From a virus: DNA of 30,085 nt. Positions 3,760-30,085 of this stretch are shown here, piece after piece (within the stretch, counting starts at the first letter, position 1; each line of letters begins with the position of its first letter). The notes below the pieces were generated by a model. The model saw only the letters and a list, made by a program, of their open reading frames with translations. It made no database searches and had not been told where the DNA came from. The stretch is taken from positions 1 through 30,085 of IMG/VR virus record IMGVR_UViG_3300031775_000025; one strand, given 5' to 3'. Made by a program: the position numbers and the translations under genes.

Positions 3760-3781
3760 ACCCGTTCCTTATCAATAAATT

Positions 3782-3796
3782 CTCTAATAGGGGACA
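3782..3796 (-). promoter_or_regulatory. Candidate T7-class promoter, copy 1
   Basis: Read on the minus strand this is TGTCCCCTATTAGAG, identical to the plus-strand copy at 8809-8823 and one base different from the minus-strand copy at 6870-6884. All copies point in the direction of the genes that follow. The CTATTAGAG part resembles the initiation region of T7/SP6 promoters (CTATAGGGAG, CTATAGAAG). It overlaps the end of thyX and lies 23 bp before the next late gene start (3759). Promoter function is inferred. Confidence 0.5.
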
Positions 3797-4407
3797 GGTC
3801 TCAAATACTTCCAAGAAATTGGAAATTTATATTCACAAGACTTATTAATCTTCATTACTATATCTCTTGTTTCTTCTTGAGCATCAGACTTTAAGCGTAA
3901 GCTACACACCCTAGAAAACGAATATAAGTTCCCTGACCAGTACCACTCAGTCATCATGTTCTGAGGTAATATCATTCTGGCCATCTCGGGAGCAATACCT
4001 TCATTTAAAAGGTTCTTATACGTTTGTTTTATATACTCTAACGTACCGGATATATCGTACTCTACAGTTTCTTTACTAGAGCCTTGCTTTATATTCTTAG
4101 CTCTCTTACGCCACACTCTTGGAATATAAAACTCAGGTTCATCATCTACATACCTTCTAGATACTTCGTTCCATACCAGGCCTACTTGGTGTTTAACTAG
4201 TTGCCTTGCAACAAAGATTGGAGCTTTTATTTTAAACTGTATAAAGGTATGAGCAAACGGACTCCAATGCTCGTGATCAGCTAGATACTTAATTAGTTTC
4301 TCATCACTCTCATCAAAGTCTGTTTTATATTTAGCAAAAGAAACTCTTGCTGCATTTACTACCGTTAAGTCCGTTCCGGCTACTTCCATTACTTGTACTG
4401 ATGTCAT
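3784..4407 (-). CDS. thyX: Flavin-dependent thymidylate synthase ThyX
   Basis: 207 residues. ThyX makes dTMP from dUMP with methylene-tetrahydrofolate, FAD and NADPH, releasing tetrahydrofolate, so no dihydrofolate reductase is needed. The ThyX signature region is visible as VKHQVGLVWNEVSRRY (family pattern RHRxxSxNExSxRY, here with Lys-His-Gln at the first three positions). Preceding HWSPFAHTFIQFKIKAPIFV and C-terminal RLKSDAQEETRDIV also fit the family. Its start overlaps the upstream gene stop (ATGA). It sits in the late, structural operon, while dCMP deaminase, which makes its substrate dUMP, is in the early block at 20665. Confidence 0.92.
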   Translation of the reverse strand: MTSVQVMEVAGTDLTVVNAARVSFAKYKTDFDESDEKLIKYLADHEHWSPFAHTFIQFKIKAPIFVARQLVKHQVGLVWNEVSRRYVDDEPEFYIPRVWRKRAKNIKQGSSKETVEYDISGTLEYIKQTYKNLLNEGIAPEMARMILPQNMMTEWYWSGNLYSFSRVCSLRLKSDAQEETRDIVMKINKSCEYKFPISWKYLRPVPY

Positions 4408-6861: not shown

Positions 6862-6869
6862 ATTGTTAT

Positions 6870-6884
6870 CTCTACTAGGGGACA
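6870..6884 (-). promoter_or_regulatory. Candidate T7-class late promoter, copy 2
   Basis: On the minus strand this reads TGTCCCCTAGTAGAG, one base from the copies at 3782-3796 and 8809-8823. It lies 35 bp before the first late gene (start 6835) and points into the late operon. It is the natural candidate for the main late promoter read by the T7-like RNA polymerase encoded at 21435-23798. Function inferred from repetition, orientation and position. Confidence 0.55.
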
Positions 6885-6965
6885 CTTCCTTAAGAAGAAA
6901 CTTAAAAAAATAATATATATATATACACCCCAAATAATTCCAATACCCCCCTTCTTCCCCTTATC

Positions 6966-6998
6966 AATTTCACATAAAGTGAAATTACTAATAATATT
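6966..6998 (+). promoter_or_regulatory. Hairpin element H0 (stem 8, loop ATAAA, then CTAATAATATT)
   Basis: Stem AATTTCAC (6966-6973), loop ATAAA, stem GTGAAATT (6979-6986), one base, then CTAATAATATT (6988-6998). It is the first of eight elements with this geometry and precedes the first early gene (7067) in the divergent control region. Between it and the gene, CTCTTC/GAAGAG and GTCC/GGAC can pair to give a structured leader. It ends no gene, so a terminator is not needed here; a hairpin promoter of the N4 type fits better. Confidence 0.6.
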
Positions 6999-7066
6999 CA
7001 CTTCTCTTCATCCGCGTCCCGACAGAAAGGACCGGAAGGAAGAGTCCAACTAAAAAGGAGATTGTT

Positions 7067-7703: not shown

Positions 7704-7735
7704 AAAGGCACATAAAGTGCCTTTTCTAATAATAT
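7704..7735 (+). promoter_or_regulatory. Hairpin element H1
   Basis: Stem AAAGGCAC (7704-7711), loop ATAAA, stem GTGCCTTT (7717-7724), T, then CTAATAATAT (7726-7735). Same geometry as H0. The stem differs from H0 at several positions, yet all eight pairs are kept. The T-rich right arm could also terminate transcription from upstream. Confidence 0.6.
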
Positions 7736-7738
7736 GTT

Positions 7739-8218: not shown

Positions 8219-8251
8219 GAAGGCACATTAAGTGCCTTCTCTAATAATATT
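8219..8251 (+). promoter_or_regulatory. Hairpin element H2
   Basis: Stem GAAGGCAC (8219-8226), loop ATTAA (the only loop variant), stem GTGCCTTC (8232-8239), T, then CTAATAATATT (8241-8251). It lies 15 nt after the stop of the upstream gene and 18 nt before the start of the next. Confidence 0.6.
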
Positions 8252-8269
8252 CTAATCAAGGAGGATTAA

Positions 8270-8477: not shown

Positions 8478-8510
8478 GAGGGCACATAAAGTGCCCTCTC
8501 TAATAATATT
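8478..8510 (+). promoter_or_regulatory. Hairpin element H3
   Basis: Stem GAGGGCAC (8478-8485), loop ATAAA, stem GTGCCCTC (8491-8498), T, then CTAATAATATT (8500-8510). It differs from H2 by a paired substitution in the stem (A-T to G-C), a compensatory change. Confidence 0.6.
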
Positions 8511-8538
8511 TTAATCTCTCAAAAATAGGAGGATCATT

Positions 8539-8670: not shown

Positions 8671-8684
8671 AGATTGTACGAAGG

Positions 8685-8711
8685 GAGGGCCCATAAAGGG
8701 CCCTCTTTTTT
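8685..8711 (+). terminator. Intrinsic terminator built on hairpin element H4
   Basis: Stem GAGGGCCC (8685-8692), loop ATAAA, stem GGGCCCTC (8698-8705), directly followed by six T (8706-8711). Loop and stem length match the other H elements, but the CTAATAATATT tail is replaced by the T run, so this copy looks like a true rho-independent terminator closing the 7.07-8.67 kb early gene group. Confidence 0.75.
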
Positions 8712-8720
8712 ACAAAAGAA

Positions 8721-8785: not shown

Positions 8786-8808
8786 AAGTTTTCAGTGAAA
8801 AATCCCAC

Positions 8809-8823
8809 TGTCCCCTATTAGAG
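8809..8823 (+). promoter_or_regulatory. Candidate T7-class promoter, copy 3 (plus strand)
   Basis: TGTCCCCTATTAGAG, identical to the minus-strand copy at 3782-3796. It lies in the gene-free stretch after the H4 terminator and points toward the SSB/replication genes. It is the only copy on the plus strand in this window and could drive middle genes by the phage T7-like RNA polymerase. Confidence 0.5.
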
Positions 8824-8892
8824 GAAGGGGTTGCGGGGCCCTGTATACCTCTATATATACTAAGAGTATGCCAATTGGATGATTTTCATGGT

Positions 8893-8948: not shown

Positions 8949-8981
8949 AGCGAGAGATAAACTCTCGCTGCTAATAATATT
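8949..8981 (+). promoter_or_regulatory. Hairpin element H5
   Basis: Stem AGCGAGAG (8949-8956), loop ATAAA, stem CTCTCGCT (8962-8969), G, then CTAATAATATT (8971-8981). The stem sequence is almost wholly different from H0-H4, yet loop, spacer length and downstream box are the same. It precedes the gene at 8999. Confidence 0.65.
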
Positions 8982-8998
8982 AATTTGAAAGGTATACT

Positions 8999-9154
8999 AT
9001 GTTATCATTTCTCGACACTGTATTGCTATGTGTGGATATCATTAATGGTATCTTGTTAGCATGTTTGTTAGTAATTATTATATTCTTTATTCCTATCTTT
9101 TGGGAAGATGTTGTGTTCTTTATGCAACATTTAATGCGTCCTAGTGGCGCGTGA
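8999..9154 (+). CDS. Membrane mini-protein (51 aa)
   Basis: ATG at 8999 after GAAAGGTATACT. The product is very hydrophobic (MLSFLDTVLLCVDIINGILL, then LLVIIIFFIPIFW), probably one long or two short membrane spans, with a polar end (MQHLMRPSGA). Its TGA stop lies inside hairpin element H6, so translation of this gene would disturb that hairpin. Function unknown. Confidence 0.6.
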   Translation: MLSFLDTVLLCVDIINGILLACLLVIIIFFIPIFWEDVVFFMQHLMRPSGA

Positions 9155-9178
9155 TAAACACGCGCTGCTAATAATATA
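9146..9178 (+). promoter_or_regulatory. Hairpin element H6
   Basis: Stem GGCGCGTG (9146-9153) with CACGCGCT (9159-9166; outer pair G-T), loop ATAAA, G, then CTAATAATATA (9168-9178). It lies 33 nt before the SSB gene and overlaps the stop codon of the gene before it. Confidence 0.65.
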
Positions 9179-9210
9179 TTATCTTTTAACCAACTATAAA
9201 GGAGTTTCTC

Positions 9211-11647: not shown

Positions 11648-11693
11648 CAAATAGAATACTCGCCCAGTACAACGCCTTCATAGCGCGATAGTG

Positions 11694-11811: not shown

Positions 11812-11833
11812 ACTTTACTTAATGGAGAATGAT

Positions 11834-13828: not shown

Positions 13829-13836
13829 GAGATACA

Positions 13837-14052: not shown

Positions 14053-14055
14053 AAC

Positions 14056-14904: not shown

Positions 14905-14956
14905 GCCCGAAAGATATTATGAATGGATGTTATGGAAATTAAAACAGGAGAAAGAT

Positions 14957-15424: not shown

Positions 15425-15608
15425 ATTAATGAATCATGTCAGTCACTTAGATGAAGAAGTTAAGGAACTTAGTAGTCGAAGAGAAGTCTTATTGAAAGAG
15501 AAAAATCTTGCAGCAATTTTTATTTATGATACCTCTATTAAGTTATTAGAGAGTAGAATAACAGAATGTAAAGCTGAGTTAGATAAAGACCGACATGAGG
15601 AAGAGTGA
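15411..15608 (+). CDS. Coiled-coil mini-protein (65 aa)
   Basis: ATG at 15411 overlaps the MazG-like gene by 14 nt. Mostly heptad-like and charged (HLDEEVKELSSRREVLLKEK ... SRITECKAELDKD), so a short coiled coil is likely. Last gene before hairpin H7 and the DNA polymerase. Function unknown. Confidence 0.65.
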   Translation: MNRSKLMNHVSHLDEEVKELSSRREVLLKEKNLAAIFIYDTSIKLLESRITECKAELDKDRHEEE

Positions 15609-15620
15609 GAGTTTATTAAA

Positions 15621-15653
15621 GGCGCGGGATAAACCCGCGCCGCTAAAAATATA
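15621..15653 (+). promoter_or_regulatory. Hairpin element H7
   Basis: Stem GGCGCGGG (15621-15628), loop ATAAA, stem CCCGCGCC (15634-15641), G, then CTAAAAATATA (15643-15653). Same geometry as H0-H6, 6.5 kb away from them, and directly before the DNA polymerase gene. A GC-only stem in an AT-rich surrounding shows that the stem, not its sequence, is kept. Confidence 0.65.
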
Positions 15654-15668
15654 TTTGAAAGGAACTAT

Positions 15669-17531: not shown

Positions 17532-17950
17532 TGAATACGTGGGTAGAGGTATATTATAACCTACATAAGAAAACCTTTTCAGTAAGACACGCAGGTAGAG
17601 TATGGTTTCATACTAACGTATTGACCTTACGTAATTGTAAGTTTGCAGTACAACCTGCTGGTCGAGCAAAGGTTCTTAAAGAAAAGAAAAAGAATGTACA
17701 TGCTTTTATAAGAGGGTTCTTTGTTAGAGGTGACGATCACACTAACCATAGAATGCTTCATGCTGATCAAGCAATGTATAACCCGTATAAAACTTCTACA
17801 TTTGTAGATGTAGGTACGGGTGAACCAGTATACAAGGCTGACATGGTATACTTAAATAACTGTTGGCCAAGACCGGAGATCTATTATGAAAATTACAAAT
17901 TCTATGGGACCTCGTCTGATAAACCCTATAGCGCAAGCAATGCTGCGTAA
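17531..17950 (+). CDS. Hypothetical protein (139 aa) next to DNA polymerase
   Basis: Start overlaps the polymerase stop by one base (TAATG). A conserved-looking basic N-terminal part (VYYNLHKKTFSVRHAGRVW, then FAVQPAGRAKVLKEKKKNVH) is of a type I know beside replication genes in marine phages, without known function. The acidic/aromatic end (RPEIYYENYKFYG) overlaps the next small gene. It may assist the polymerase; this is context only. Confidence 0.72.
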   Translation: MNTWVEVYYNLHKKTFSVRHAGRVWFHTNVLTLRNCKFAVQPAGRAKVLKEKKKNVHAFIRGFFVRGDDHTNHRMLHADQAMYNPYKTSTFVDVGTGEPVYKADMVYLNNCWPRPEIYYENYKFYGTSSDKPYSASNAA

Positions 17951-18038
17951 TAGGAAAGCCAAACAGGTTATACCTAATAAGAAAAAGTATAACCGCAAAC
18001 GAGATAAAGGAAAGGGAAAAAATGAAACTATTTCTTGA
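17886..18038 (+). CDS. Highly basic mini-protein (50 aa)
   Basis: ATG at 17886 with GGAG eight nt upstream. The product is dominated by Lys and Arg (AMLRNRKAKQVIPNKKKYNR then KRDKGKGKNETIS) and starts MKITNSMGPRLINPIAQ. Overlaps the previous gene by 65 nt and the exonuclease start by 17 nt. Such basic peptides between polymerase and exonuclease are familiar in podoviruses; a nucleic-acid-binding role is likely but unproven. Confidence 0.6.
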   Translation: MKITNSMGPRLINPIAQAMLRNRKAKQVIPNKKKYNRKRDKGKGKNETIS

Positions 18039-18837
18039 TGCCGATAGTATTATGTTTAAAGCTGCTTGTACTCAAGACAGTAAGTATGATACTCGAGTAG
18101 TTACTCGTAAAATAGTAGAAGATTCTATTGCCGATTGTTTTGCAGATGAAACCTATGTAGCAGTAAAGGGTAAGAATAACTTTAGATATAATGTATACTC
18201 AGGCTATAAATCTTCACGTAAAGATAAGCTTGATGAAGATCTAAAGAAAAAGCTTAATGATTCTTATAACTACTTATTAGATAAGTGGCAAGCTGTTCCT
18301 GCTGATGGTATGGAAGCTGATGATCTAGTTTCTATATGGGCTTATGAAGCAAGAGCTGCTGAAGAAGACTTTGTTATCGGTCATATTGATAAAGACATAA
18401 ATCAAATAGCTGGTAACCACTATAACTATAATAAGAAGAATGTTTACTTTGTTAATGATGAACAAGCTGATATGAATTTCTGTATCCAACTTCTTATTGG
18501 AGACTCAGGAGACGATATACCTAAAGTTAAAAGAGGCTTTGGTATTAAGACTGCTGAGAAAGCTTTAGCCGATACTACCTATGATAACCGTATGGATACT
18601 GTAGTAGATATATGGAAAAGACTATATGGTAGAGGATGGGAGAAGCAACTTAACATGATTGGTAATCTAATCTATATGAAACGAACTTGGGATTTAGAGG
18701 AGTGGAACTATGAAGATCGTTATACCGGGAAAGCCGATGTCAGCAAACCGAATGGAAGGGATACGAGCGATACGGACAAAGGACGGAAGGAACTTCACGC
18801 AGACGTACCCGACGAAGGAGTACAAGGAGTTTCTTGA
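18022..18837 (+). CDS. 5'-3' exonuclease (FEN/T7 gp6-like)
   Basis: 271 residues. Metal-binding segments in order: LFLDADS at the N-terminus, ADGMEADDLVSIWA in the middle, HIDKDINQIAG, and IGDSGDDIPKVKRGFGIKTA, the helix-hairpin-helix region of the family. It removes RNA primers and resects DNA ends. RBS GGAAAGGGAAAAA before ATG 18022. The last about 40 residues (from RYTGKADVSKPNGRD on) are read from DNA that also codes for the start of RusA in another frame, and look unlike the rest of the family; the domain proper ends near EEWNYED. Confidence 0.88.
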   Translation: MKLFLDADSIMFKAACTQDSKYDTRVVTRKIVEDSIADCFADETYVAVKGKNNFRYNVYSGYKSSRKDKLDEDLKKKLNDSYNYLLDKWQAVPADGMEADDLVSIWAYEARAAEEDFVIGHIDKDINQIAGNHYNYNKKNVYFVNDEQADMNFCIQLLIGDSGDDIPKVKRGFGIKTAEKALADTTYDNRMDTVVDIWKRLYGRGWEKQLNMIGNLIYMKRTWDLEEWNYEDRYTGKADVSKPNGRDTSDTDKGRKELHADVPDEGVQGVS

Positions 18838-19090
18838 ACGCTTCACTGAAGCAACAAGTGAATTGAGTTGGCAGTTTGAAAAGACTGCCGACATCAAAAT
18901 AACTTTTAATGTATCCTTTAGCAATCGAGCATCTGATTTAGATAATATACTTAAACCGACATTAGATGCTATACAAAAAGTTTTCGATTGGAATGATAAA
19001 TATTGTTATGAAATCGCCGCATACAAAACACTTGTAAAGAAAGGCGAAGAAAGATTGGAGATAAATGTTGAAGAAATTAATAGACAATAG
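18710..19090 (+). CDS. rusA: RusA-family Holliday junction resolvase
   Basis: 126 residues. N-terminus MKIVIPGKPMSANRM is the usual RusA opening; the catalytic segment DLDNILKPTLDAIQ at 76-89 supplies Asp76, Asp78 and Lys82, and Asp96 is probably the third acid. It cuts branched DNA such as Holliday junctions, useful before packaging; T7 uses gp3 for this. The start lies 128 nt inside the exonuclease frame, with RBS GAGGAGTGG 4 nt upstream of the ATG. Overlaps the primase start by 26 nt. Confidence 0.88.
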   Translation: MKIVIPGKPMSANRMEGIRAIRTKDGRNFTQTYPTKEYKEFLERFTEATSELSWQFEKTADIKITFNVSFSNRASDLDNILKPTLDAIQKVFDWNDKYCYEIAAYKTLVKKGEERLEINVEEINRQ

Positions 19091-20678
19091 TAGATATGAA
19101 TGCCCGGATTGTGGTAGCTCAGATGGATTAATGCATGATCCAAGTGATGATCATACATATTGTTTTGCATGTAAAAAGTATAAAGAAAAAGTAGAAGGAG
19201 TAACGAGTAATGACAAACCCAATGCCGATACAATTAATAACGGACAACCTGATATCGCCGATATTCATAACTATCCTAGTCTTGGTATTACTAGTCGCAA
19301 TATTTCAGCGAATGTAACTAGTTGGTTCGGTGTAAAGACTCACCAATATAATAATAAACCAGCACACTTTTATCCTTATGGAGATGATTGTTATAAAATA
19401 AGAATCTTACCTAAGGACTTTAGACTATTAGGTAAACCAAGAAAATTATTTGGTCAAGATAAGTTTAACAATGGTAAGATGCTTGTAATAACTGAAGGCG
19501 AGCTTGATGCGTTAGCTGTAGCTCAGGCGATGATTGATACTAAGAATACTATATACCCTGTAGTATCTATTCCTTCTGCTAATCAATTAAGTTTACTGTT
19601 AGAAAATAGAGATTGGCTTCGAAGATTCGATGAAGTAATTCTATGGTTTGATAATGATGAAGCCGGTCAAGCAGCTATAAAACAAGCAGCTAAAATAATT
19701 GGTTTCGATAAAGTAAAAGTTATAGAAACAGAAGATAAAGATGCTTGTGATTTATACACAACTAAAGGATCTAAAGGAGTAACCAATGCTATATGGGGTG
19801 CTCATAAGTATAACCCAGCTGGTATTCTAACTGGTGAAAAAGTATGGGATAAGTTTATGGAGAGACAGACAACTCAGTCTATCCCTTATCCTGATTGTCT
19901 AACCGGTCTCAATGATAAACTGAAAGGTATGAGACATGGAGAGATAACCTTGTTTACTAGTGGTACAGGTTCAGGTAAATCTACCGTAATTAAAGAGATT
20001 ATATGGCACTTACTTTCTACTACTAAAGAAAGAACCGGCCTCATATCTCTTGAAGAAAGTGTAGGTGATACTGCTGAGAAACTTATTGGTATGAGTATTA
20101 ATAAGAGAATTGGTGGAGATCTTATTGTATCTAAAACCGAAATGAGAGAAGGCTTTGATAAAGTATTTAAGGACGAACGCCTTGTCTTATTAGACCACCA
20201 AGGCTCTGTTGAAGATAGTTCTTTAATAGATAAGATAGAGTACATGGCTCTTATGGGATGCAAGTATCTATTCTTAGATCATATAACTATTGCTGTGTCT
20301 GAAGGTAACGATGGCCTAACAGGTAATGCAGCAGTCGATAAGGTTATGTCTGATCTACTTAAGATAGTTAAGAAGCATAACATCTGGCTAGGTATTGTAA
20401 GTCACTTACGTAAAGCAGGAGATGGTAAAGCATTTGAAGAAGGCAACATGGCTTCCATTGATGATATCAAAGGTAGTGGTAGTATCAAACAAATATCATT
20501 TGATATTATAGCTTTCTCAAGGAATCTTGTAGCTGAAACTATTAATGAACGTAATAAGATTTCTTTTACTGTGCTTAAATCTAGATTCACAGGTTTAACT
20601 GGACCAGCCGGAGTTAGTATATATGATACTAATACTGGTAGATTAGAGAAAGGAGAGTCAGGCTTTGACATTATCTAA
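19065..20678 (+). CDS. Bifunctional primase-helicase (T7 gp4-like)
   Basis: 537 residues (T7 gp4 has 566). Zinc finger with Cys13, Cys16, Cys33 and Cys36 (CPDCGSSDGL ... YCFAC); TOPRIM primase motifs VITEGELDALA and VILWFDNDEAG; hexameric helicase Walker A GTGSGKST at 300-307, then a Walker B-like segment YLFLDHITIA and SHLRKAGDG. It unwinds the fork and makes primers for the polymerase at 15669. ATG after GGAGATAA, inside the end of rusA. The stop overlaps the dCMP deaminase start. Confidence 0.95.
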   Translation: MLKKLIDNSRYECPDCGSSDGLMHDPSDDHTYCFACKKYKEKVEGVTSNDKPNADTINNGQPDIADIHNYPSLGITSRNISANVTSWFGVKTHQYNNKPAHFYPYGDDCYKIRILPKDFRLLGKPRKLFGQDKFNNGKMLVITEGELDALAVAQAMIDTKNTIYPVVSIPSANQLSLLLENRDWLRRFDEVILWFDNDEAGQAAIKQAAKIIGFDKVKVIETEDKDACDLYTTKGSKGVTNAIWGAHKYNPAGILTGEKVWDKFMERQTTQSIPYPDCLTGLNDKLKGMRHGEITLFTSGTGSGKSTVIKEIIWHLLSTTKERTGLISLEESVGDTAEKLIGMSINKRIGGDLIVSKTEMREGFDKVFKDERLVLLDHQGSVEDSSLIDKIEYMALMGCKYLFLDHITIAVSEGNDGLTGNAAVDKVMSDLLKIVKKHNIWLGIVSHLRKAGDGKAFEEGNMASIDDIKGSGSIKQISFDIIAFSRNLVAETINERNKISFTVLKSRFTGLTGPAGVSIYDTNTGRLEKGESGFDII

Positions 20679-21105
20679 GAACGATAAAATGTATCTTGAG
20701 ATAGCTCAGATAATATCTGAAAGATCTAGAGATAAACTATATAAAGTTGGCGCGCTAATAGCTAAGGGTAATAATATCCTTAGCTACGGCTGGAATGGTA
20801 CGCCTCATGGTATGGATAACGAAACCCGTAACCACGATGCTACCACTAAATGGGAGTTAGTTCATGCTGAAACAAACGCAATAGCTAAATTAGCTGCCTC
20901 AACTTCTTCTTCTCTTGGTGCAACGCTATACTTAACACATTCACCTTGTAAAGATTGCACTAAACTTATACTACAATCTGGAATAAAGAGATTAGTATAC
21001 AAAAAGCTATATGAATCTTGGATCAATGGTGAAAGAATACCACAGATTGATGCATTACATTTACTACAAGATAATGGAGTGGAAGTTGCGCAATATAGAG
21101 ATTAG
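20665..21105 (+). CDS. dCMP deaminase
   Basis: 146 residues from a TTG start at 20665 (AGGAGAG upstream). Zinc and proton-transfer signature: HAE at 67-69 and PCKDC at 94-98. It converts dCMP to dUMP, the substrate for ThyX (3784-4407). It therefore competes with the hydroxymethylase at 12797 for dCMP. T4 has the same enzyme pair. Overlaps the helicase end by 14 nt. Within the gene GCTAAGG/CCTTAGC can pair, probably by chance. Confidence 0.93.
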   Translation: MTLSKNDKMYLEIAQIISERSRDKLYKVGALIAKGNNILSYGWNGTPHGMDNETRNHDATTKWELVHAETNAIAKLAASTSSSLGATLYLTHSPCKDCTKLILQSGIKRLVYKKLYESWINGERIPQIDALHLLQDNGVEVAQYRD

Positions 21106-21544
21106 GGAAAACACTAATGAAGTAGTGAGGTACCCTGAAGATATGTATTGTGTTTACTTCCATAAAGATCCTGATAGTGATAACGTAATATATGTAGGTA
21201 AAGGTACCTTACACAGAGCATACCAAATAACTAATCGTAGTTACGATCACCATGTTTGGTTGTTAGATAAACTAGGTAATCATACGATTCAAGATATAGT
21301 AGTAATCAAAGGCGGTCAGATGACCGACAAAGAAGCTACTGTAGTAGAATCTCATGAAATTAAATGTTGCTTAAGGCGTGGGTCTGACTTATTTAATGTC
21401 ACACATAACCCGTTCCGCAAAACTAGGAGAGAGAATGCAGAATGTAATAGAGTATTTAGAACAGAAAATTATCAGTACACCTCAGAGGTGGGCAGTAAGG
21501 CTGGTGAACGAACACAAGTTAGAACCAAAGAGAGTCGTGTATGA
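21086..21544 (+). CDS. GIY-YIG domain protein (possible endonuclease)
   Basis: Start at TTG 21086 (GGAG six nt upstream) overlaps the deaminase end; other starts are possible. About 152 residues. The GIY-YIG elements are MYCVYFHKDPDSDNVIYVGK, then the Arg in HRAYQ and the Glu in VESHEIKC, which carry the catalytic Arg and metal-binding Glu. Such domains occur in homing and free-standing nucleases, or as degenerate phage domains. The last about 36 residues are read from DNA that also codes for the start of the RNA polymerase. Lying between two core genes, it may be a mobile, homing-type insertion. Confidence 0.7.
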   Translation: MRNIEIRENTNEVVRYPEDMYCVYFHKDPDSDNVIYVGKGTLHRAYQITNRSYDHHVWLLDKLGNHTIQDIVVIKGGQMTDKEATVVESHEIKCCLRRGSDLFNVTHNPFRKTRRENAECNRVFRTENYQYTSEVGSKAGERTQVRTKESRV

Positions 21545-23798
21545 TGCATTAACTATATTACAATACCATTTTAGAAAGACTTCAACATCTGAATCAGCAA
21601 CATGTAAACTTACAGCAGCTTCAGTAGCTATTGGTAAGAACGTGTTGCTTCAGAAAGGAGTTGAGTTAGGATTTAGAGCCGATGTAACAGTCGGCGACCT
21701 AATTCTTGAAGCATTCTATGAATGTAAGTATATTAAAATAGTTAGAGCTCCTACTGAAGCTCAAATAAAGTGGGAAGCAAACCCAGTAGGTAAGAAACCT
21801 TTTAGTCGTGCTCCATATATGATTGAGACTTCTGAAAAATGGTTAAACATTGGGTCGCTTCCTGACCAAGTAGTTAACGAGCTTATACAAAACACTTCAT
21901 TCAAGAAGATTAAGCGTATAAGTAGACTGTTTCAAGACAATGGATACCCGGTCATTAAGCATTGGGGATATGATAGAGACGAAGATTTCAAGCTACTACT
22001 TGAAGAACCTTTCGTTGACGCTATCAATAAGCTACAACGTACAGCTTGGACCATTGATGCTGATATATTAGAGGCTGTACAGAAAAACAAACGGAAGTTT
22101 GTTAGTGAAACCTTAAAAGTATCTGATAAGACAGGTAAGAATTACCGTTACTGTATCTTCGGTAATAATAAAGAGTTAGAGAGTAAAGACTTATACTGGA
22201 ATGGAGTTGTCTTCAAACCTGAGTTAGGTAATAAGTCTCTTGAGAAAAAGTATTATGGTGAACTTAGACGATTGACTAATAAGTTACGTAATAAACCTAA
22301 CAAGAAGCCGTTACATACTATGCAAGGTAAATATGATGAAGCGGCTACTCATTGGAATGCTAAGTTAGTATTACTTAAAAACCGTAGTAAGTTTGATGCG
22401 TATAATATGACTATCCAAAAGGCTGAAGCCTTGAAGGATAAAATCTTCTTTCAATATATCGATGCAGATTATAGGGGGAGATTGTATTATCGTGAATCAT
22501 ATCTAAACTATCAAGGTAAAGATATGGAACGGGGGTTATTAAAGTTTGCTCAAGCAAAACCAATAACCGAGGAAGGGTTATATTACTTTGCTGTACATAC
22601 AGCGTGTAGTTATAACCAATCGTATTCAATCGATAATATACCAGAGTGGTGTGAAGCCGATTATAAATCAGCGTTAGAAGATGAAGGTCTTACGGATATC
22701 TCTGTAGATAAGATGACCATTGATGACCGAGTTAAATGGGTCGTCAACAACGAAGACTTCATCAGAAATACGTGGGTTAATCGAACTATCCATGAGAAAG
22801 CTGAGAAACCTGTAGGTTTTCTTGCCTGTTGTAAGGCGTGGTGTAAGTTATGGGATCAAGAGTCTGAAGATGGTGTACACTACATCGATCTTCCTGTTCC
22901 TATTGATGGTTCTAATAATGGTTGGCAGCATTTAGCTGCTATATCTAAGGACGAAAAGGCTGGAGAGTTAGTCGGCTTGGTTAAAACCGATATACCGAAA
23001 GACTTTTACGTGCAAACAGCTAAAGCTTTGATATCCCGTGTGCCTGACTGGTTCGCGCAGAGAGCCATGCCTATGAAACACATAAGGAAAGGTATATCGA
23101 AGCGCGGAGCGATGACTAGAGCGTACTCTGCTGGCCACCTAGCCATAGCTTTGAACATGTATGCTGACTGTTATGCCGAAGGATTCCATAGTAAGTACGA
23201 TATTACTATGTCTGACTGTAATGATTTAGCTTATCAACTAATAAAAGCTATTGATGAGGTCTGTCCGGGTCCGTTAGAGACTATGAGCTACCTTCAAGCA
23301 ATAGCAAACCATATTATTGCTGAGCTAAAGGAACCAGTAGTCGATTGGATAACTCCATCTGGCTTTCCAGTACGATACGAAAACTACGTAATGGAAGACG
23401 TCAAGTGGAAGAGTTGGATCTCTGATATGAGGATCCAGCACGTAGGTAAGGAACACCGGTTGGTATACGGTAAAAAGATACCTAGTCCAGGTGGCTTTGC
23501 CTCAGGTATTAGTCCAAACTTTATTCATAGTATGGACGCAGCTCATATGGCTCTGATTATCCATCACTGGGACGGAGACTTTGCTGCAATTCATGACTCA
23601 TTTTCTACTCACGCTTGTGATGTAGCTAGCTTATTAGGTTTAACTAAGGAAGTGTTCATTAAAATGTACGATCATGATGATTTCTATAAGCACATAGCTG
23701 ATATGCTATTGTTTGAACCTGATAACTTTAATTACAATTACAAATTAGGAGATCTAAATATAGAAGGAATAGCTGATAGTGACTATTTCTTCTCATAG
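21435..23798 (+). CDS. T7-like single-subunit RNA polymerase
   Basis: 787 residues from ATG 21435 (RBS AGGAGAGAGA); the frame extends upstream without a better start. Motif A DGSNNGWQHLAAISKDE with Asp491; motif B KRGAMTRAYSAG with Tyr564; ISPNFIHSMDAAH; motif C AIHDSFSTH with Asp721. These match T7 Asp537, Lys631/Tyr639 and His811/Asp812. It would transcribe phage genes from its own promoters; TGTCCCCTATTAGAG (three copies) is the best candidate. In T7 the polymerase gene is early and near one end; here it is the second-last gene of the early block. Confidence 0.96.
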   Translation: MQNVIEYLEQKIISTPQRWAVRLVNEHKLEPKRVVYDALTILQYHFRKTSTSESATCKLTAASVAIGKNVLLQKGVELGFRADVTVGDLILEAFYECKYIKIVRAPTEAQIKWEANPVGKKPFSRAPYMIETSEKWLNIGSLPDQVVNELIQNTSFKKIKRISRLFQDNGYPVIKHWGYDRDEDFKLLLEEPFVDAINKLQRTAWTIDADILEAVQKNKRKFVSETLKVSDKTGKNYRYCIFGNNKELESKDLYWNGVVFKPELGNKSLEKKYYGELRRLTNKLRNKPNKKPLHTMQGKYDEAATHWNAKLVLLKNRSKFDAYNMTIQKAEALKDKIFFQYIDADYRGRLYYRESYLNYQGKDMERGLLKFAQAKPITEEGLYYFAVHTACSYNQSYSIDNIPEWCEADYKSALEDEGLTDISVDKMTIDDRVKWVVNNEDFIRNTWVNRTIHEKAEKPVGFLACCKAWCKLWDQESEDGVHYIDLPVPIDGSNNGWQHLAAISKDEKAGELVGLVKTDIPKDFYVQTAKALISRVPDWFAQRAMPMKHIRKGISKRGAMTRAYSAGHLAIALNMYADCYAEGFHSKYDITMSDCNDLAYQLIKAIDEVCPGPLETMSYLQAIANHIIAELKEPVVDWITPSGFPVRYENYVMEDVKWKSWISDMRIQHVGKEHRLVYGKKIPSPGGFASGISPNFIHSMDAAHMALIIHHWDGDFAAIHDSFSTHACDVASLLGLTKEVFIKMYDHDDFYKHIADMLLFEPDNFNYNYKLGDLNIEGIADSDYFFS

Positions 23799-23802
23799 GT
23801 AA

Positions 23803-23988
23803 ATGAGTATGATTAAAATAAAACCAGACGGTAAGATAGGTATAGATGAAGAAGATATTGCTTTCATATATAAATATGGTATCGTATTTCTTAATGGCAA
23901 TGAGATACATTACTCTCAAAGCTTTATAAAGAGATACGTAGAGCAAAATAACTTACAACATCTATACCACCACGATATATGTGGTTAA
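23803..23988 (+). CDS. Hypothetical protein (61 aa), last early gene
   Basis: ATG at 23803, 5 nt after the polymerase stop, with a weak RBS (TAGGTAA). The product MSMIKIKPDGKIGIDEEDIA is a compact beta-type sequence ending HHDICG. It ends directly at the stop of the convergent large late gene. Function unknown. Confidence 0.6.
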   Translation: MSMIKIKPDGKIGIDEEDIAFIYKYGIVFLNGNEIHYSQSFIKRYVEQNNLQHLYHHDICG

Positions 23989-23996
23989 TTACATAT
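23977..23996. terminator. Convergent gene junction with weak inverted repeat
   Basis: The stop codons of the early (23986-23988) and late (23989-23991) strands abut with no spacer. ATATGT (23977-23982) and ACATAT (23991-23996) could form a 6-bp AT-rich hairpin in either direction. There is no GC-rich stem and no T run, so a strong terminator is not visible and read-through in both directions is possible. Confidence 0.3.
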
Positions 23997-26900
23997 CTAT
24001 TTGAAGCTTACGGAAGTCCTTAGCGGCTTCCATAAGTTTCTTTTTAGCTTTACCGACATCTTCAATTGTTTTATAGTTACGTGAAAGGACGTTTAGTCCA
24101 GTGTTTTTTGGTTTAATCTTTTGGTGCTTCCACTTATTTGTTTTAGGATCTTGAACTGGTTCAGCTCCAACTCCTTCGACTCCTAGTATATTATCAAAGA
24201 GTCTTAACAAGTTATTACCAGAAAGCTCTTTTACTTGCTTACCTTTCATACTATTAGCTTTTGGTAAAAGATTAGCAGCAAGTCCTTCAGCTCTAACTCT
24301 TTTCTTCCACTCATAAGACTTTACTGGTTCTCCTCGCTCTCTAGGAGGGTGATCCATAGTATCATATAGTGTTGTAACTAAATTCTCTTCACTAAACAAA
24401 TTAGTTTCTGTATCATTGAGTAACCAGTAAAAACCTCTATACTCATTATCCATATTAATATCGACTTTAGTATCCCCAATATTTCTAAGCTTGGTTCTAA
24501 ACCTTTGTATAGCTCCGGGTGTCCAGTCTTCCATTAGACTGTTGACGTAAGAATACTCTTCGATAACATTCCACCAATTATCATTAGCAAGTTCTCTTGC
24601 TTTCCTAGCTCCTCTTAAATCTGTCTTTACGGCATCCATAATAGGTAGCATATATTGTCTGTTCATCTTAGCCCACGATGCACCAGTAAACATTCGGTTC
24701 ATCCATGCACCATCGATACCTTGTATAACAGCCGGTATAATTCTGCCTCTACCCCAGCCACCAGGCTTGCCTTTTCTTACAGCACTTCCTGAAGGTTGTG
24801 ATTCATATAAAGGTACTGCTCCAGCTCTTTTTACTGGAGAATCTTTACCAAACATAACTCCTGTGTTTCCATGAATATCATCTCTCATCATAGTACTTCT
24901 AGCACCGATATAATTATCAACACCAATAGCATTCTTAACTTTCATAACTTCATCGGATAGCATAGCAACTACGTTGTTAGCTCTAAGTAGTTGACCAACT
25001 TGTACAACTCCAGGATCTAATTCAGCATCAATAGCATCTGCTAGTATGTTATGTAAGTAATCCGCAACAATGTCTTCTCTTGTTGGAATTACCATTCCTT
25101 TAGTTGCAGCAATCTTTTTATCTACAACAGCTCCAACCTGTTTACTGTTTATAATTTGTCGTATCTTAACAGAAGAAGGGCCAATAAATATAGTATCGAT
25201 TATAGCTTTTCTTAAGTTTTTTAATAACTGCCCATAAGCTAAAGTCATAGGAGGCTTTTTAAGAAAATTATCTCTATCTTTTAAAGCTAACTTTAATATC
25301 TTATTCATACTAGAAGCTATATCAGTATTACGCGAAAAGTTTTGAGCATATATTTGACCATTTTCTTCCATAAAATAGTTCATAGCATCTCGAATATCGC
25401 CAGCTTGAAGATCAGGTTCTGTCTCTGCTCCTTGGTATAGGTCAGCTACAGGTATACTATCTAAATTTTTAGTAGCACCAGCCTTTCTTAATACTCCAGC
25501 TCTAAATGCAGCCTTCATAGAACCTAATTGCATTAAATTACTAGCAGGTCCGTGAGTTTTACCATCAAATTCTATACCTATATTACTTTGAAATGATGTA
25601 TTAGATTTCTTAGCTTGTTCAAATTTAAATAACTCATGAGCAGCTTCGATAAGCTGTAATCCTTCTAATTCTTCACCAATAGCTTTCTTTTTTAAGTTAC
25701 CAGATATATTTAATCTAGGTATTGAAGCTAATTCAGGAGGTATACTAATACCTTTAGAAGTCATCCCAATCTTTTTCATTGATTCTAAAGACTTTTGATC
25801 TTGATCAGAGTCTAATAAGCTTTCAGATATAGATTTACCGTCTTGGATATAGCTCGCAAACTTACCATGGTTAGGACTATTCCATTCAGCGTCAAAAGCA
25901 GCAACCCTATTTTCAGGTAATAGCTTATCTGCTCCTGGTATAAAGTGTTTTGCCATTAGCTCTTTAAACATTAATGTTTCATCTGAGTTAACAGCATTAG
26001 GATTTACAGTTGGAGGATTTAACCCACCAGTTACAAATCTAATCCAAGGAATTAATTGAGGATTAAATCTAGTCTGAGTAAAGTGCATTCTAGTTTGAAG
26101 CTCTTGTACAGCTGGATCTAAATAATTAGCTTGATTACTATACTTTGCAATGGTGTTTAAAGTTTCTATAAATTTAGTAATCTGCTTTTCCATTTCAAAT
26201 TCAGGTTTATAATCAGTATTAGGATCATCTAATAATTTCTTATCTAATTCTCCTCTAAACGCTATCATTTTAGCAGGACCGATTTTTAATAGATCACCTA
26301 TTTCAGGAGGTCTAGTTGAATTCTTTAATCCAGTGAGTACTTCCATAGCTAATTGAACATATATTTTTCTTCTCAAAGGATCTACACCATGAGCAACACT
26401 GTTCATATTATCTCGAGCTTCCTCTACTTCTCTTATTTTTTGCTCAATAACAGAGGTAGTCTTAGCTTTTCTATATTTTTTAGATTCTCCTTCACCAGCC
26501 TCAGTTACCCGTTGTCTACGTCTAGGTATAGTAGAAGGTGGTATCTCGTAACCACTGAACACTTCAGGAGAAGATGCTTCAGCAGCAGCTAAAGCTGTAG
26601 CTCCTAATGGTGTAAGTTTAAATTGTACGTTCCTATCATCTAAAGAACCTCTATCAGAAGAATATAATTCAGGATTAGCTGCATGATACATTTCTTTAGC
26701 AGTAACACCTAACGTTTCAAACTGATCTGCTGTAACTCCGGCTTCAGTGTATTCATCAGTTGGTCTACCTTGCATAGCGTTCTGTTCTCGTTTCCAAGCT
26801 CTAAATATTTCTCGACCTAACTGCTGGTTTCCTATACCTCTTCTTAATACTCCTTCTTCTGTTGTAACTCGCTCTACTTCAGATAAAGCTTTTTCAGAAA

Positions 26901-27669
26901 AATCTTCTAAGCCTCCTTCTGCTTCAGTGTCTTGTTTTGCTGGTACATTATATTGATTTTGTAATATAAATTTTTCTGTAGCTAATCCCATTATTCTAGC
27001 AAACAAAGGATGCACTTGCATTTTAAACCCTTCATCCATTACTTGACCAGCATTAAATCCTTTGGGATCAAACAATATCCCTTTAACAGAGTTAGGATTT
27101 ATCTCTTGACCTGACATTGTACCAGCTTCTTCAGGAGTAGCTCCCATAATTATAGGTACACTTTGTGCTTCAGTAAGATAAGCTCCAGCAACTGTAGCTC
27201 CTGATTCTAGTTTAGAATGAAACATGGTTGTAAATCTATCAGATCTTTTTATTGATTCACCCATACCATCATTAGTATAATCTTCAAAGTCTAGTACGTC
27301 TTCTCGTATCTCACTAAAAGGTATTACTCTTTCTCTTTCTCTATTTTCTACAGCTTCATCTGCAAATATTCTAGAATCTGATTCTTCTATTATACTTCGA
27401 AACTTTTCTCTTTGTGCTATTTGAGAGTCCGATAATTCTCTACCTTTTTGTATATCAGGTATATCAAACTTAACAACAGGTGGTGGAGTAGAAGGTTGTT
27501 CTTGAAATAAGGTAGTAGGCTTTTGTGCTTCTAAAGAAACAGGGCCTCTTTCTTGAAGTCCTTCTATTGGTGTCTTAGGTCTAAGCCTTTCACCTAAAGC
27601 AGCTGAGGAAGCTTCGCGATCTTTTACCATCTCCATTAAACCACTTTGTGGATTTATTCTTATTGCCAT
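23989..27669 (-). CDS. Large virion-type protein with N4-vRNAP-like RNA polymerase motifs
   Basis: 1226 residues from ATG 27669 (GGAG in TTTGGAGAATAAT). The C-terminal half carries the T7/N4 single-subunit polymerase motifs in order: motif A IEFDGKTHGPASNLMQLG (Asp702), motif B RDNFLKKPPMTLAYG (Arg799, Lys804, Tyr812), a segment IQGIDGAWMNRMF (Asp986), and motif C PIMDAVKTD (Asp1012). Spacing A-B-C is 110 and 200 residues, compared with 102 and 173 in T7. WIRFVTGGLNP (Arg544) may be the TxxGR region. Motif C has Met instead of the usual His. The N-terminal 500 residues are charged and unrecognised. It follows an ejection-type protein in the late operon, as expected for a polymerase packaged in the virion and injected with the DNA. 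Confidence 0.72.
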   Translation of the reverse strand: MAIRINPQSGLMEMVKDREASSAALGERLRPKTPIEGLQERGPVSLEAQKPTTLFQEQPSTPPPVVKFDIPDIQKGRELSDSQIAQREKFRSIIEESDSRIFADEAVENRERERVIPFSEIREDVLDFEDYTNDGMGESIKRSDRFTTMFHSKLESGATVAGAYLTEAQSVPIIMGATPEEAGTMSGQEINPNSVKGILFDPKGFNAGQVMDEGFKMQVHPLFARIMGLATEKFILQNQYNVPAKQDTEAEGGLEDFSEKALSEVERVTTEEGVLRRGIGNQQLGREIFRAWKREQNAMQGRPTDEYTEAGVTADQFETLGVTAKEMYHAANPELYSSDRGSLDDRNVQFKLTPLGATALAAAEASSPEVFSGYEIPPSTIPRRRQRVTEAGEGESKKYRKAKTTSVIEQKIREVEEARDNMNSVAHGVDPLRRKIYVQLAMEVLTGLKNSTRPPEIGDLLKIGPAKMIAFRGELDKKLLDDPNTDYKPEFEMEKQITKFIETLNTIAKYSNQANYLDPAVQELQTRMHFTQTRFNPQLIPWIRFVTGGLNPPTVNPNAVNSDETLMFKELMAKHFIPGADKLLPENRVAAFDAEWNSPNHGKFASYIQDGKSISESLLDSDQDQKSLESMKKIGMTSKGISIPPELASIPRLNISGNLKKKAIGEELEGLQLIEAAHELFKFEQAKKSNTSFQSNIGIEFDGKTHGPASNLMQLGSMKAAFRAGVLRKAGATKNLDSIPVADLYQGAETEPDLQAGDIRDAMNYFMEENGQIYAQNFSRNTDIASSMNKILKLALKDRDNFLKKPPMTLAYGQLLKNLRKAIIDTIFIGPSSVKIRQIINSKQVGAVVDKKIAATKGMVIPTREDIVADYLHNILADAIDAELDPGVVQVGQLLRANNVVAMLSDEVMKVKNAIGVDNYIGARSTMMRDDIHGNTGVMFGKDSPVKRAGAVPLYESQPSGSAVRKGKPGGWGRGRIIPAVIQGIDGAWMNRMFTGASWAKMNRQYMLPIMDAVKTDLRGARKARELANDNWWNVIEEYSYVNSLMEDWTPGAIQRFRTKLRNIGDTKVDINMDNEYRGFYWLLNDTETNLFSEENLVTTLYDTMDHPPRERGEPVKSYEWKKRVRAEGLAANLLPKANSMKGKQVKELSGNNLLRLFDNILGVEGVGAEPVQDPKTNKWKHQKIKPKNTGLNVLSRNYKTIEDVGKAKKKLMEAAKDFRKLQIDM

Positions 27670-27670: not shown

Positions 27671-30085
27671 TTATTCTCCAAAACCCCATTTATAAGATTG
27701 TTTATCTACTTGTTGGTGTATTACTTGCGCTATAGGCGTAATCTTAGTTAAGCTTTCAGCTGGTGCTTCTCCTAAAAGAACATTACCTCCTATGTTAGCC
27801 ATTCTTAATGCCTTACTGATCCCAGCAGATTCACTAGCTACAGTACCGAACGCCCAGCCAACAGTGGTTTGGTATCTCTTATCATACATAGGAAATACAA
27901 AGTCAATAGCTCTTTCACCTGTACCTAATAATCCACTTGCACCTACTCCTCGTCTAACATACTCTATACCTTTAAAATAAGGAGTAGTTTCTCCATACTT
28001 AAGTAAATCTTTTAAGTGTTGTGATACAAACCCCAACAAGATCATTGTAGAAACTGTAGCAAATACATTATACTTCATAGCAGGAGTACCACGTTTTGCC
28101 ATTTCAGCGTACATTTTAGGAATATGGTTAGCAGTAAATGTAGCTATAAAACCTTGGAACTGAGTAAACAACGCAAACCTAGGATCTTGAAAGATTAACG
28201 GTCTATTAGCTGATTGAGGTAATGCAACAGCTTCATTAACAAAATTAAATGTAGCATCATTTATCATTCGTTCCCAGTCTTGTCTCATTTCCTGGTTAGG
28301 TAATACTGTTTGCTCATCTCTAACAAATGTACTATGGTATCTAGCTAAAAACTCTGTATCTAATCCTAAATTTCTTAAAGCTTCTTCTGCTTCTCTTGAC
28401 TCATTTGTGTTTACTTCTGCTTGTCTAGCAGCTACCATTATAGATACTTTATCAGTGATATAATCTAAAGCTATAGAAGCTCTTGCAGCACGTGCAGCAT
28501 TAGTCCACTGTTGTAGTAAGATAGTTTTAAAATACATATCAAGTATTCTTTGATGCCATCTACCTGTTTCACTAACGCCTGTTGTATGAGCAGCACCAAC
28601 TTCCCAATCCATAAACCCTAGCTTTTTAGCTATTGCATGTCCACCTTCTCCTCTCATATGAGGTCTTGGTGAACCTGATAAAGTACCATAGAATCTATTT
28701 GCAGTATTCTTAAATTCATCTGCAAAAGATTTTGCTAAAGAGTTTATACTACCTTTCTTACCAAAAATCTGTTCTTGAGTTAATCCTTTACTTGTTAAAG
28801 CTAACTCAACAAAATTTGATATAGTGGCTAATGGTAATCCTGTAATTGTAGTAACAAACAAAATATTCTTTTGTGCAAACCTTAATATAGGAGGGATATC
28901 TCTCTTATAGTTACCTGATTCAGCATCAAAGTAATTCTTTAAATCAAAAGCAAGCTTGTTAACTCTTTTTCTTGCTTGATCAGCATTATAATTACCTGAA
29001 GCTACAAGCTCTTCTTCTATTTTATTTAAATTGTAATTAAGTTTTTCATTATTACTACCAACATATTCTTCTAATACTGTATATCTTATAGCAGATTTAG
29101 CTGCATTAGATATATTAGTGAATACATCTCTTTCCATAAACTGTTGAAACTCTGCTCTATCAGAAAGGTTTAATGTTCTTCCTCTATGCGATTGAGGTCT
29201 AAATGTAGTTCTATCAGTAACAGAAAATCCTCCACCAACTTGAAAATTAGAAGGTATATCAGCACCATCTATCTGTAATATAGCATCGGTGAGTTTAGTA
29301 GCAGCTTCAGGAGTTATTATTGTTTCGCCATTTTCGTTTTCTATCTTTGTTAACTCATGCTCAAATGCAGCTCTATTATTTTCTATAGCTAATTTATCTA
29401 AAGACTTATATCTTGATAAGTAATCTTGAACATAACCTAATTCTGAATTATGTTTAGATTGCATTTCATGTAAGTCATTACCTGTTTCTATTAGCTTTCT
29501 ATGAAAATTTCTAAACGCACGAGCTTGTGATCTTAACTCTGTAGGTAAATCAATATCCCAATTTATTTCTCTATTTTCTCTAGCTGCTGCTTCTCTAGCT
29601 GCTTCAAACGCTGTATAGTATTGTTCACTAAATTCTAATCTAGATTTACGTTTATCGTTTCTTCCAAACGCAGCAAGAAGTGATGACACATCTCCAAGCT
29701 TATGTCTTATTTCAGAAATTAAATTATGTTTTCTATTTTCATAGGACTGACCTGATGTAGATCTTTGTAAATTACCACCAACAGATTCAGCAAGAACTCT
29801 AGCTGTAGTAGAGCTTTCTTGTATTCCACCCATATTATCTGTTGCTTGTCTAGTTAAACCTCTCCATAAACCTGGTATACCTCTCCACCAATCTTTTGCA
29901 AGTTGTGGAACAGTTCGTTCTTCTTTACTAGCCTCATGCGCATCAACTCTATCATTTGCATCTAGCCCTCCTAACTCTGCTAACCTAGCTTCTGTTCTCT
30001 GTCTTGTAGCATTGCTTATTCTACGAGATAATCTAGCTCTTAGAGTTTCTATTTCCTGACGGTTTTGATCAGTAATAGCTTTAGT
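27671..30085 (-). CDS. Large internal virion (ejection) protein, N-terminus outside window
   Basis: The frame is open from the right edge to a stop at 27671, at least 804 residues; an internal ATG at 29833 has no RBS, and the frame continues upstream without a stop. Much of it is helical and charged. Hydrophobic stretches (FVTTITGLPLATISNFVELA, then AAARASIALD-type helices, and NVFATVSTMILLGFV near the C-terminus) suggest membrane insertion. This architecture is that of podovirus internal proteins that build the ejection channel, and of marine phage large polyvalent proteins. The stop precedes the next start by one base, so it is translated with the putative virion polymerase. Confidence 0.7.
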   Translation of the reverse strand, partial: TKAITDQNRQEIETLRARLSRRISNATRQRTEARLAELGGLDANDRVDAHEASKEERTVPQLAKDWWRGIPGLWRGLTRQATDNMGGIQESSTTARVLAESVGGNLQRSTSGQSYENRKHNLISEIRHKLGDVSSLLAAFGRNDKRKSRLEFSEQYYTAFEAAREAAARENREINWDIDLPTELRSQARAFRNFHRKLIETGNDLHEMQSKHNSELGYVQDYLSRYKSLDKLAIENNRAAFEHELTKIENENGETIITPEAATKLTDAILQIDGADIPSNFQVGGGFSVTDRTTFRPQSHRGRTLNLSDRAEFQQFMERDVFTNISNAAKSAIRYTVLEEYVGSNNEKLNYNLNKIEEELVASGNYNADQARKRVNKLAFDLKNYFDAESGNYKRDIPPILRFAQKNILFVTTITGLPLATISNFVELALTSKGLTQEQIFGKKGSINSLAKSFADEFKNTANRFYGTLSGSPRPHMRGEGGHAIAKKLGFMDWEVGAAHTTGVSETGRWHQRILDMYFKTILLQQWTNAARAARASIALDYITDKVSIMVAARQAEVNTNESREAEEALRNLGLDTEFLARYHSTFVRDEQTVLPNQEMRQDWERMINDATFNFVNEAVALPQSANRPLIFQDPRFALFTQFQGFIATFTANHIPKMYAEMAKRGTPAMKYNVFATVSTMILLGFVSQHLKDLLKYGETTPYFKGIEYVRRGVGASGLLGTGERAIDFVFPMYDKRYQTTVGWAFGTVASESAGISKALRMANIGGNVLLGEAPAESLTKITPIAQVIHQQVDKQSYKWGFGE

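Follow-up and report, generated by a model that had tools for sequence, protein, structure and literature searches.

Bacteriophage N4 uses an injected virion RNA polymerase (vRNAP), a T7-like heterodimer named RNAPII and the polymerase of its host, according to a section of a review that also infers that virion polymerases predate the split second polymerase of N4 (PMC4496689). A passage of another study restricts virion polymerases of the N4 type to N4-like phages and describes them as fused, in all or nearly all cases, to metallopeptidase domains (PMC5512222). Here we analysed a virus record of 30,085 bases, IMGVR_UViG_3300031775_000025 (the window, that is, the whole stretch), in which an unbroken frame on the minus strand (23989-27669, ATG at 27669) encodes a protein of 1226 residues. 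This protein is almost certainly a compact form of the N4-type vRNAP catalytic domain, and its gene stands convergent with that of an undivided T7-like RNA polymerase.

The relationship to N4 was evaluated with profiles. The window-protein family (family W) comprises 21 IMG/VR loci, each giving one alignment row, with 36-65% identity except for one near-identical fragment, L003; L003, L024, L025 and L026 are partial, and L026 is misaligned at motif A. When family W was compared by hhalign with 15 vRNAP pieces from Schitoviridae (the N4-type family), a match of 97.2% probability was obtained (E 4.1e-11, score 107.8, 716 columns), which pairs window residues 213-1036 with residues 141-975 of N4 mini-vRNAP. 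Controls made by shuffling the columns (ten) or by reversing the alignment (one) scored 15-22 (E 0.28-0.89), and family W against the T7-like family profile gave a probability of 1.0%. A 5-row alignment against single sequences was too thin (0.8-1.7%); the deeper alignment resolved N4, not gp33 of the cultured Roseobacter phage CRP-7 (MK613349). Similarly, a hidden Markov model built from the 15 Schitoviridae vRNAPs alone ranked ten W-type proteins at the top among 349 open reading frames (ORFs) of 12 genomes, nine of them at E ≤0.0053 and the tenth at 0.13, the best non-W ORF being at 0.21. The PHROG virion RNA polymerase family matched weakly (E 1.5e-4 for the window protein and 2.8e-5 for L001). 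The 1226-residue protein had no match in Pfam, the RNA_pol family of T7-like (Autographiviridae-type) polymerases included, and only chance matches in a PDB sequence search. Among GenBank phages, tblastn detected no relative of it at E 0.01 and none of L005 at E 1, and in GTDB genomes 50 pattern matches contained 0 true relatives.

The AlphaFold2 (AF2) model of residues 190-1226, computed from 18 rows, reached a mean predicted local distance difference test score (pLDDT) of 75.9 and a predicted template modelling score of 0.67. The best 50 matches listed by Foldseek for this model were all single-subunit RNA polymerases (mitochondrial, T7, N4). VIA-align superposed it on T7 RNA polymerase (8dh5_E) with Z 24.2 over 587 residues at 5.6 Å and on N4 mini-vRNAP with promoter (3c46_A) with Z 22.8 over 584 residues at 5.2 Å. 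The preliminary description of this DNA, made from the letters alone, had proposed a 1226-residue relative of N4 vRNAP at this place; the frame, the profile relationship (E 4.1e-11 versus at least 0.28 in the controls) and the right-hand polymerase fold all bear this out.

R424, D559, K670, Y678 and D951 are catalytic residues of N4 vRNAP. By hhalign and the family alignment they pair with R527, D702, K804, Y812 and D1012 of the window protein, where Asp702 lies in IEFDG (motif A), Tyr812 in MTLAYG (motif B) and Asp1012 in PIMDA (motif C), at the very residues named in that first description, and the conservation in homologues was confirmed as well. Lys804, Tyr812 and Asp1012 are invariant in all 21 family W rows. 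The Asp702 column holds D in 17 rows, a gap in 3 partial rows and H in the doubtful partial row L026; Arg527 is R in 17/17 rows covering its column, and the Arg799 column has R in 17 rows, K in 2, P in 1 and a gap in 1. Motif A reads ExDGxTHG in the 17 complete family W rows (17/17) and ExDGx(T/N)(N/D)G in 15/15 N4-type rows, and motif C reads (M/F)DA in family W and (F/Y/W/H)D(G/A) in Schitoviridae. Two weak points that had been raised against the assignment fall away. Met at the motif C His position is no defect, because Schitoviridae vary at this position (F, Y, W or H) and N4 itself has Phe there (IFDG); the TxxGR segment, which had seemed unclear, is located by the pairing of N4 R424 with R527 inside QTRMHFTQTRFNPQ. 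We also observed that L026 (1-1266), a partial family member, has motifs B and C and a differing sequence at the place of motif A; a chimera or a diverged form is possible.

Genes of the window run leftward from 3 to 6835, rightward from about 7067 to 23988 and leftward again from 23989. The first block encodes an SU10-type portal (Pfam, E 9e-120) that also matches the CRP-7 portal; the rightward block carries DNA polymerase A (15669), a Toprim/DnaB-type protein (19065) and the standard T7-like polymerase already noticed in the preliminary description, which Pfam recognises as RNA_pol. The vRNAP gene is the first leftward gene counted from the convergence point, and the opposite strand of its frame is rich in stop codons. 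In six IMG/VR loci it is convergent with a T7-like polymerase frame of about 800 residues, and a single-ORF T7-like polymerase stands beside the W-type vRNAP in 10/10 sequences (the window and nine relatives, among the 12 phage sequences and 349 ORFs surveyed). This pairing fits the inference that virion polymerases predate N4's split RNAPII.

Cysteine is absent from all 1226 residues of the window protein, from 20/21 family W rows (L021 has one) and from 15/15 N4-type pieces, versus 12 cysteines in the neighbouring T7-like polymerase. The gene is the last of a cysteine-free late cluster. The two genes upstream of it in the cluster encode large, cysteine-free proteins in L002 and L004, the upstream-cluster protein examined in L005 has one cysteine, and a 999-residue late-cluster protein of L002 has a transglycosylase domain (E 1.9e-5). 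In the window, the product of the next upstream gene is likely a second ejection protein. Lack of cysteine has been proposed, in a passage on the N4-like phages LUZ7, LIT1 and PEV2, as a possible requirement for passage (PMC3715699), and an excerpt of another report presents the vRNAP of StenR_269 as guessed from size, cysteine lack and helical content (PMC10747016). The missing cysteines, the cysteine-free late cluster with a transglycosylase and the position shared with N4 gp50 make it likely that the window vRNAP is packaged in the virion and injected. Where a second single-subunit RNA polymerase of the N4 kind, "probably virion-packaged", had been suggested, the enzyme is supported by profile and fold, and packaging is well supported by the indirect signs of cysteine content and cluster position.

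A scan for perfect hairpins returned eight with a five-nucleotide ATAAA loop (ATTAA in one of them) and stems of 7-8 base pairs, all on the plus strand; seven fall in the 6966-9165 interval and the other, at 15621, lies ahead of the DNA polymerase gene. One loop is common to seven different stems; none of 30 dinucleotide shuffles exceeded two. The stems covary: 64/64 cells are paired and 8/8 pairs show double changes, compared with 59.6% in shuffles. Seven of the eight hairpins are followed at a constant distance from the loop by a box (six times exactly CTAATAATAT, once CTAAAAATAT), and the eighth by a T run. Site selection that considered the loop and the sequence after the hairpin and ignored the stem (at most one mismatch) gave 7/7 sites with seven or more Watson-Crick pairs counted from the loop and no G-T among the inner seven, a pattern expected where folding is needed in both DNA strands; the two reverse-strand sites carrying two mismatches lacked such a stem. 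Folded as single-stranded DNA, the window hairpins reached z-scores of -4.2 to -6.7 versus -1.5 and -2.9 for the N4 hairpins at 557 and 4546, which from their position and structure we take to be known early promoters. The inner stem and loop of the 15621 hairpin are identical in the relatives G002 and G004. Host sigma-70 promoters showed no clear excess between 6600 and 12100 (20 versus 15.0 in shuffles, standard deviation 4.7). On these sequence grounds the window hairpins are probably promoters of the vRNAP. As separate observations, the hairpin at 8685-8719 looks like a promoter hairpin doubling as, or turned into, a terminator. An open frame of about 63 codons with a clear AGGAGG follows the 8219 hairpin (8272-8463, plus strand); a search next to it for ATG, GTG or TTG with a ribosome site yielded no start codon, and an unusual one is possible.

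Similar surveys were performed with nine relatives, G002 to G010, which are fragments or of unknown completeness, and with CRP-7. Hairpins sharing a loop (stem of at least 7) exceeded all 30 shuffles in 4 of these 11 sequences, the window, G006, G007 and G008, and not in G002, G003, G004, G005, G009, G010 or CRP-7. The G008 count rests partly on AT-rich hairpins, which a later filtered survey removed, and the four ACAAG hairpins of G002 mostly have 6-base-pair stems, so they appear only in that survey. The filtered loops were ACAAG (4) and ATAAA (1) in G002, ATAAA (4) in G007, ATTC (3, same stem) in G003, AGAA (3) and AAAA (1) in G006, and one ATTC and one ATAC in G008. In G002, G003, G006 and G007 the hairpins occupy the early side, in the stretch from the T7-like polymerase gene to the divergent boundary. 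The T7-like polymerases of these genomes are mostly 75-95% identical while the loops differ, which argues for the faster-changing vRNAP (36-65%) as the reader of the hairpins. Near the early boundary of G003 we also noted a perfect 12-base-pair hairpin, AAAAATAACCCC-GTTA-GGGGTTATTTTT (25712-25739), which is probably a terminator.

A different signal accompanies the late genes. With up to three mismatches, GTGTCTCCTATTAGAGAT was found at 20 sites in the 11 sequences, nine of which had hits; none were found in G007 or CRP-7. Forty shuffled consensuses gave a mean of 0.4 sites and a maximum of 3, a control that tests chance only, the consensus having been derived from the genomes in which it was counted. 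The sites are intergenic in 19/20 cases, and 10/20 lie 21-34 nucleotides ahead of a gene start, mostly of late genes. Their TATTA-GAGA core resembles the T7 promoter core. The motif was also considered as a hairpin and in the opposite orientation, and both were dropped; the stem is not kept (e.g. GTCCCC...GAGAA), and this, with the orientation relative to the late genes, led us to read it as linear. It looks like a promoter of the T7-like polymerase, a candidate pairing drawn from these positions. The interval from the linear motif to the first leftward start contains an inverted repeat, TGGTTAAAATTTAACCAATTGTTAT (6845-6868), kept in G002 and G008.

Two other roles for the hairpins were weighed. 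With the polymerase as described, they could work in RNA, as stabilisers of 5'-untranslated regions, processing sites or terminators between early genes. Most of them do sit between co-directional genes, six T follow the 8685 hairpin, the 8478 hairpin fits the terminator scan, and some relatives have GCGCGAT-loop-ATCGCGC followed by TTTTT. The 6966 site, however, lies in a divergent region that contains no gene end, no T run is present at 8949, 9146 or 15621, the stem-blind sites are free of G-T in the inner seven pairs and the loop-to-box distance is constant in 7/7, so that a function at the RNA level is unlikely. Reading by the T7-like polymerase, with the vRNAP using other signals, would suit the hairpin ahead of the DNA polymerase gene, a middle-type position, and both polymerases do come from one superfamily. 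Enzymes that are mostly 75-95% identical would then have to read ATAAA, ACAAG, ATTC and AGAA loops, although a conserved linear T7-type motif exists for them and drifting loops are in keeping with vRNAPs that are 36-65% identical; we consider this very unlikely. Several points nevertheless weigh against the hairpins as vRNAP promoters. N4 hairpin loops have 3 nucleotides and are centred at -11, whereas the window loops have 5. The loop-recognition element of N4 (K114, R119 and W129, as given in part of PMC4496689) falls outside the part aligned by hhalign, so hairpin recognition is not transferable residue by residue; nor did hhalign find a sequence match to N4 for residues 1-212 and the last ~190. 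In G002, G003 and G007 a CTAAT-like box is off the 9-nucleotide spacing of the window, which makes its role as a start box uncertain outside the window, and the filtered survey found one hairpin each in the fragments G004 and G005 and none in the fragments G009 and G010. The 8685 hairpin, a probable terminator lacking CTAATAATAT, and the terminator pattern at 8478 count on the same side.

As for the protein, a fortuitous resemblance of its motifs, in a virion-internal protein of unrelated origin, would agree with the lack of a Pfam match and the chance-level PDB sequence matches, but the hhalign, model-ranking, Foldseek and VIA-align results jointly oppose this, and we give it practically no credence. 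A former polymerase retained for ejection or structure, no longer making RNA, is another alternative: the motif C His position is Met or Phe, the gene sits among ejection proteins, and activity of the 1226-residue protein is itself a prediction. Yet five counterparts of N4 catalytic residues are retained despite 36-65% overall identity, Phe occupies the His position in N4 too, and the early-region hairpins would be left without a user; loss of RNA synthesis thus appears highly improbable. An active N4-type vRNAP is retained as our reading, and the features on which it bears are listed in Table 1.

Table 1. Genes, catalytic codons and predicted signals of the window.
Feature	Position	Strand	Remarks
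Compact N4-type virion RNA polymerase gene	23989..27669	-	1226 residues, 0 Cys
Undivided T7-like RNA polymerase gene, 787 residues	21435..23798	+	Pfam RNA_pol E 3.5e-53; convergent with vRNAP gene
Late-cluster gene next upstream of vRNAP gene	27671..30085	-	Runs past window end; 720 residues from ATG 29833; 0 Cys; PHROG virion structural protein 3.6e-11
Codon Arg527, counterpart of N4 R424 (TxxGR motif)	26089..26091	-	hhalign; 17/17 covering rows
Codon Asp702, motif A, counterpart of N4 D559 (ExDGxTHGP)	25564..25566	-	hhalign and family alignment
Codon Lys804, motif B, counterpart of N4 K670	25258..25260	-	21/21 rows
Codon Tyr812, motif B, counterpart of N4 Y678	25234..25236	-	21/21 rows
Codon Asp1012, motif C, counterpart of N4 D951	24634..24636	-	21/21 rows
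Predicted vRNAP early promoter, hairpin AATTTCAC-ATAAA-GTGAAATT then CTAATAATAT	6966..7000	+	Divergent intergenic region
Predicted vRNAP early promoter, hairpin AAAGGCAC-ATAAA-GTGCCTTT then CTAATAATAT	7704..7738	+	Hairpin scan
Predicted vRNAP early promoter, hairpin GAAGGCAC-ATTAA-GTGCCTTC then CTAATAATAT	8219..8253	+	Hairpin scan
Predicted vRNAP early promoter, hairpin GAGGGCAC-ATAAA-GTGCCCTC then CTAATAATAT	8478..8512	+	Terminator pattern fits too
Probable terminator with common loop, hairpin GAGGGCCC-ATAAA-GGGCCCTC then TTTTTT	8685..8719	+	Without CTAATAATAT
Predicted vRNAP early promoter, hairpin AGCGAGAG-ATAAA-CTCTCGCT then CTAATAATAT	8949..8983	+	Hairpin scan
Predicted vRNAP early promoter, hairpin GCGCGTG-ATAAA-CACGCGC then CTAATAATAT	9146..9180	+	Hairpin scan
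Predicted vRNAP promoter, hairpin GGCGCGGG-ATAAA-CCCGCGCC then CTAAAAATAT	15621..15655	+	~28 nucleotides before DNA polymerase gene
Linear T7-type promoter-like motif (GTGTCTCCTATTAGAGAT)	6868..6885	-	2 mismatches; 32 nucleotides before leftward ATG 6835
Linear T7-type promoter-like motif, inside leftward late operon	3780..3797	-	3 mismatches
Weaker copy of the linear motif, early region, pointing right	8808..8825	+	4 mismatches; early-side equivalents in G002, G003, G006, G008

Together, these results suggest the following scheme, to which as a whole we assign a probability of roughly 70%. The compact vRNAP would be made late, packaged with two further cysteine-free ejection proteins, and would enter the cell either before the DNA or together with it. 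There it would transcribe the early genes from DNA hairpins extruded by supercoiling, with a lineage-specific loop (here ATAAA) and with CTAATAATAT as the predicted initiation box at a fixed distance after the hairpin. Early and middle products would include the DNA polymerase and the undivided T7-like RNA polymerase, and the latter would then transcribe the late operons, the vRNAP gene included, from the linear promoter GTGTCTCCTATTAGAGAT. Whether late transcription is independent of the host is a more tentative matter: it is possible, at somewhat less than even odds, that this marine phage group runs its entire transcription programme on two enzymes of its own, with no use of host RNA polymerase. 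If true, such a two-enzyme programme would be a preserved form of the organisation that could have given rise to the giant vRNAP and the split RNAPII of N4. A stand-alone vRNAP of one-third the size shows what is dispensable and offers a tractable enzyme for the study of polymerase passage through a phage tail. The hairpin and linear motifs make the assignment of polymerases to promoters directly testable, and the diverging loops are natural data on joint change of a hairpin-reading polymerase and its signals.

The cultured relative CRP-7 resembles the window in its portal (57% identical) and T7-like polymerase (36%). Its gp33, at the same genome place, has 1235 residues and no cysteine, and IQGGD...AIHDAL and GLYGK resemble polymerase motifs by eye. 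It differs in that gp33 has no significant profile match to the W, N4-type or T7-like families and in that neither shared-loop hairpins nor the linear motif were found in CRP-7. The AF2 model of the CRP-7-type protein (gp33 relatives) gave no usable fold (pLDDT 37.7). Proteins gp33, gp34 and gp35 (L009 17859-29367) are three giant proteins with no cysteine, and gp35 has a Pesticin/lysozyme domain (E 3.6e-6). The paper on CRP-7 names one RNA polymerase, ORF30, and the GenBank record lists gp33 as hypothetical; it is possible that gp33 is a vRNAP that has diverged very far. A passage of PMC11654794 reports a vRNAP of the N4 kind in a phage that is not a member of Schitoviridae, the Poorviridae phage vB_PunP_Y3 (OR779980). 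The N4 vRNAP profile does not reproduce this claim: nothing significant was detected in the Y3 genome, where the best ORF reached E 0.5, and no ORF of this genome was picked up by the T7-like profile. A 10-kb gene of Y3 (L116, OR779980 24147-34412), labelled DdrB-like ParB, may encode the protein counted as vRNAP.

With N4 gp50 the window protein shares the homologous catalytic domain with its five matching residues (motif A is ExDGxTNGP in N4), the absence of cysteine, a leftward late gene at the convergence point and hairpins before early genes. Unlike gp50, it has 1226 instead of about 3500 residues, the one-third size that the preliminary description had given, the long N- and C-terminal domains being largely absent, and it lacks the HExxH metallopeptidase motif, whereas the usual Schitoviridae vRNAP carries a metallopeptidase. 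The phage itself has an SU10-type portal and appears to lie outside Schitoviridae. Its second enzyme is T7-like, as are T7 RNA polymerase and N4 RNAPII (gp15-gp16), but it forms one undivided chain where that of N4 is a heterodimer, and the late genes of the group appear to have T7-type promoter motifs, while N4 late genes use host RNA polymerase. The possession of both polymerase types, which had been regarded as an unusual system, is not new in itself, because N4 already has a vRNAP and a T7-like RNAPII (as the same section of PMC4496689 describes). No description of the W-type protein family or of the predicted promoters was found in the portions of the open-access literature consulted. New relative to N4 are a vRNAP that is compact and stands alone, an undivided second polymerase beside it, their presence in what appears to be a phage group other than that of N4, and the predicted promoters.

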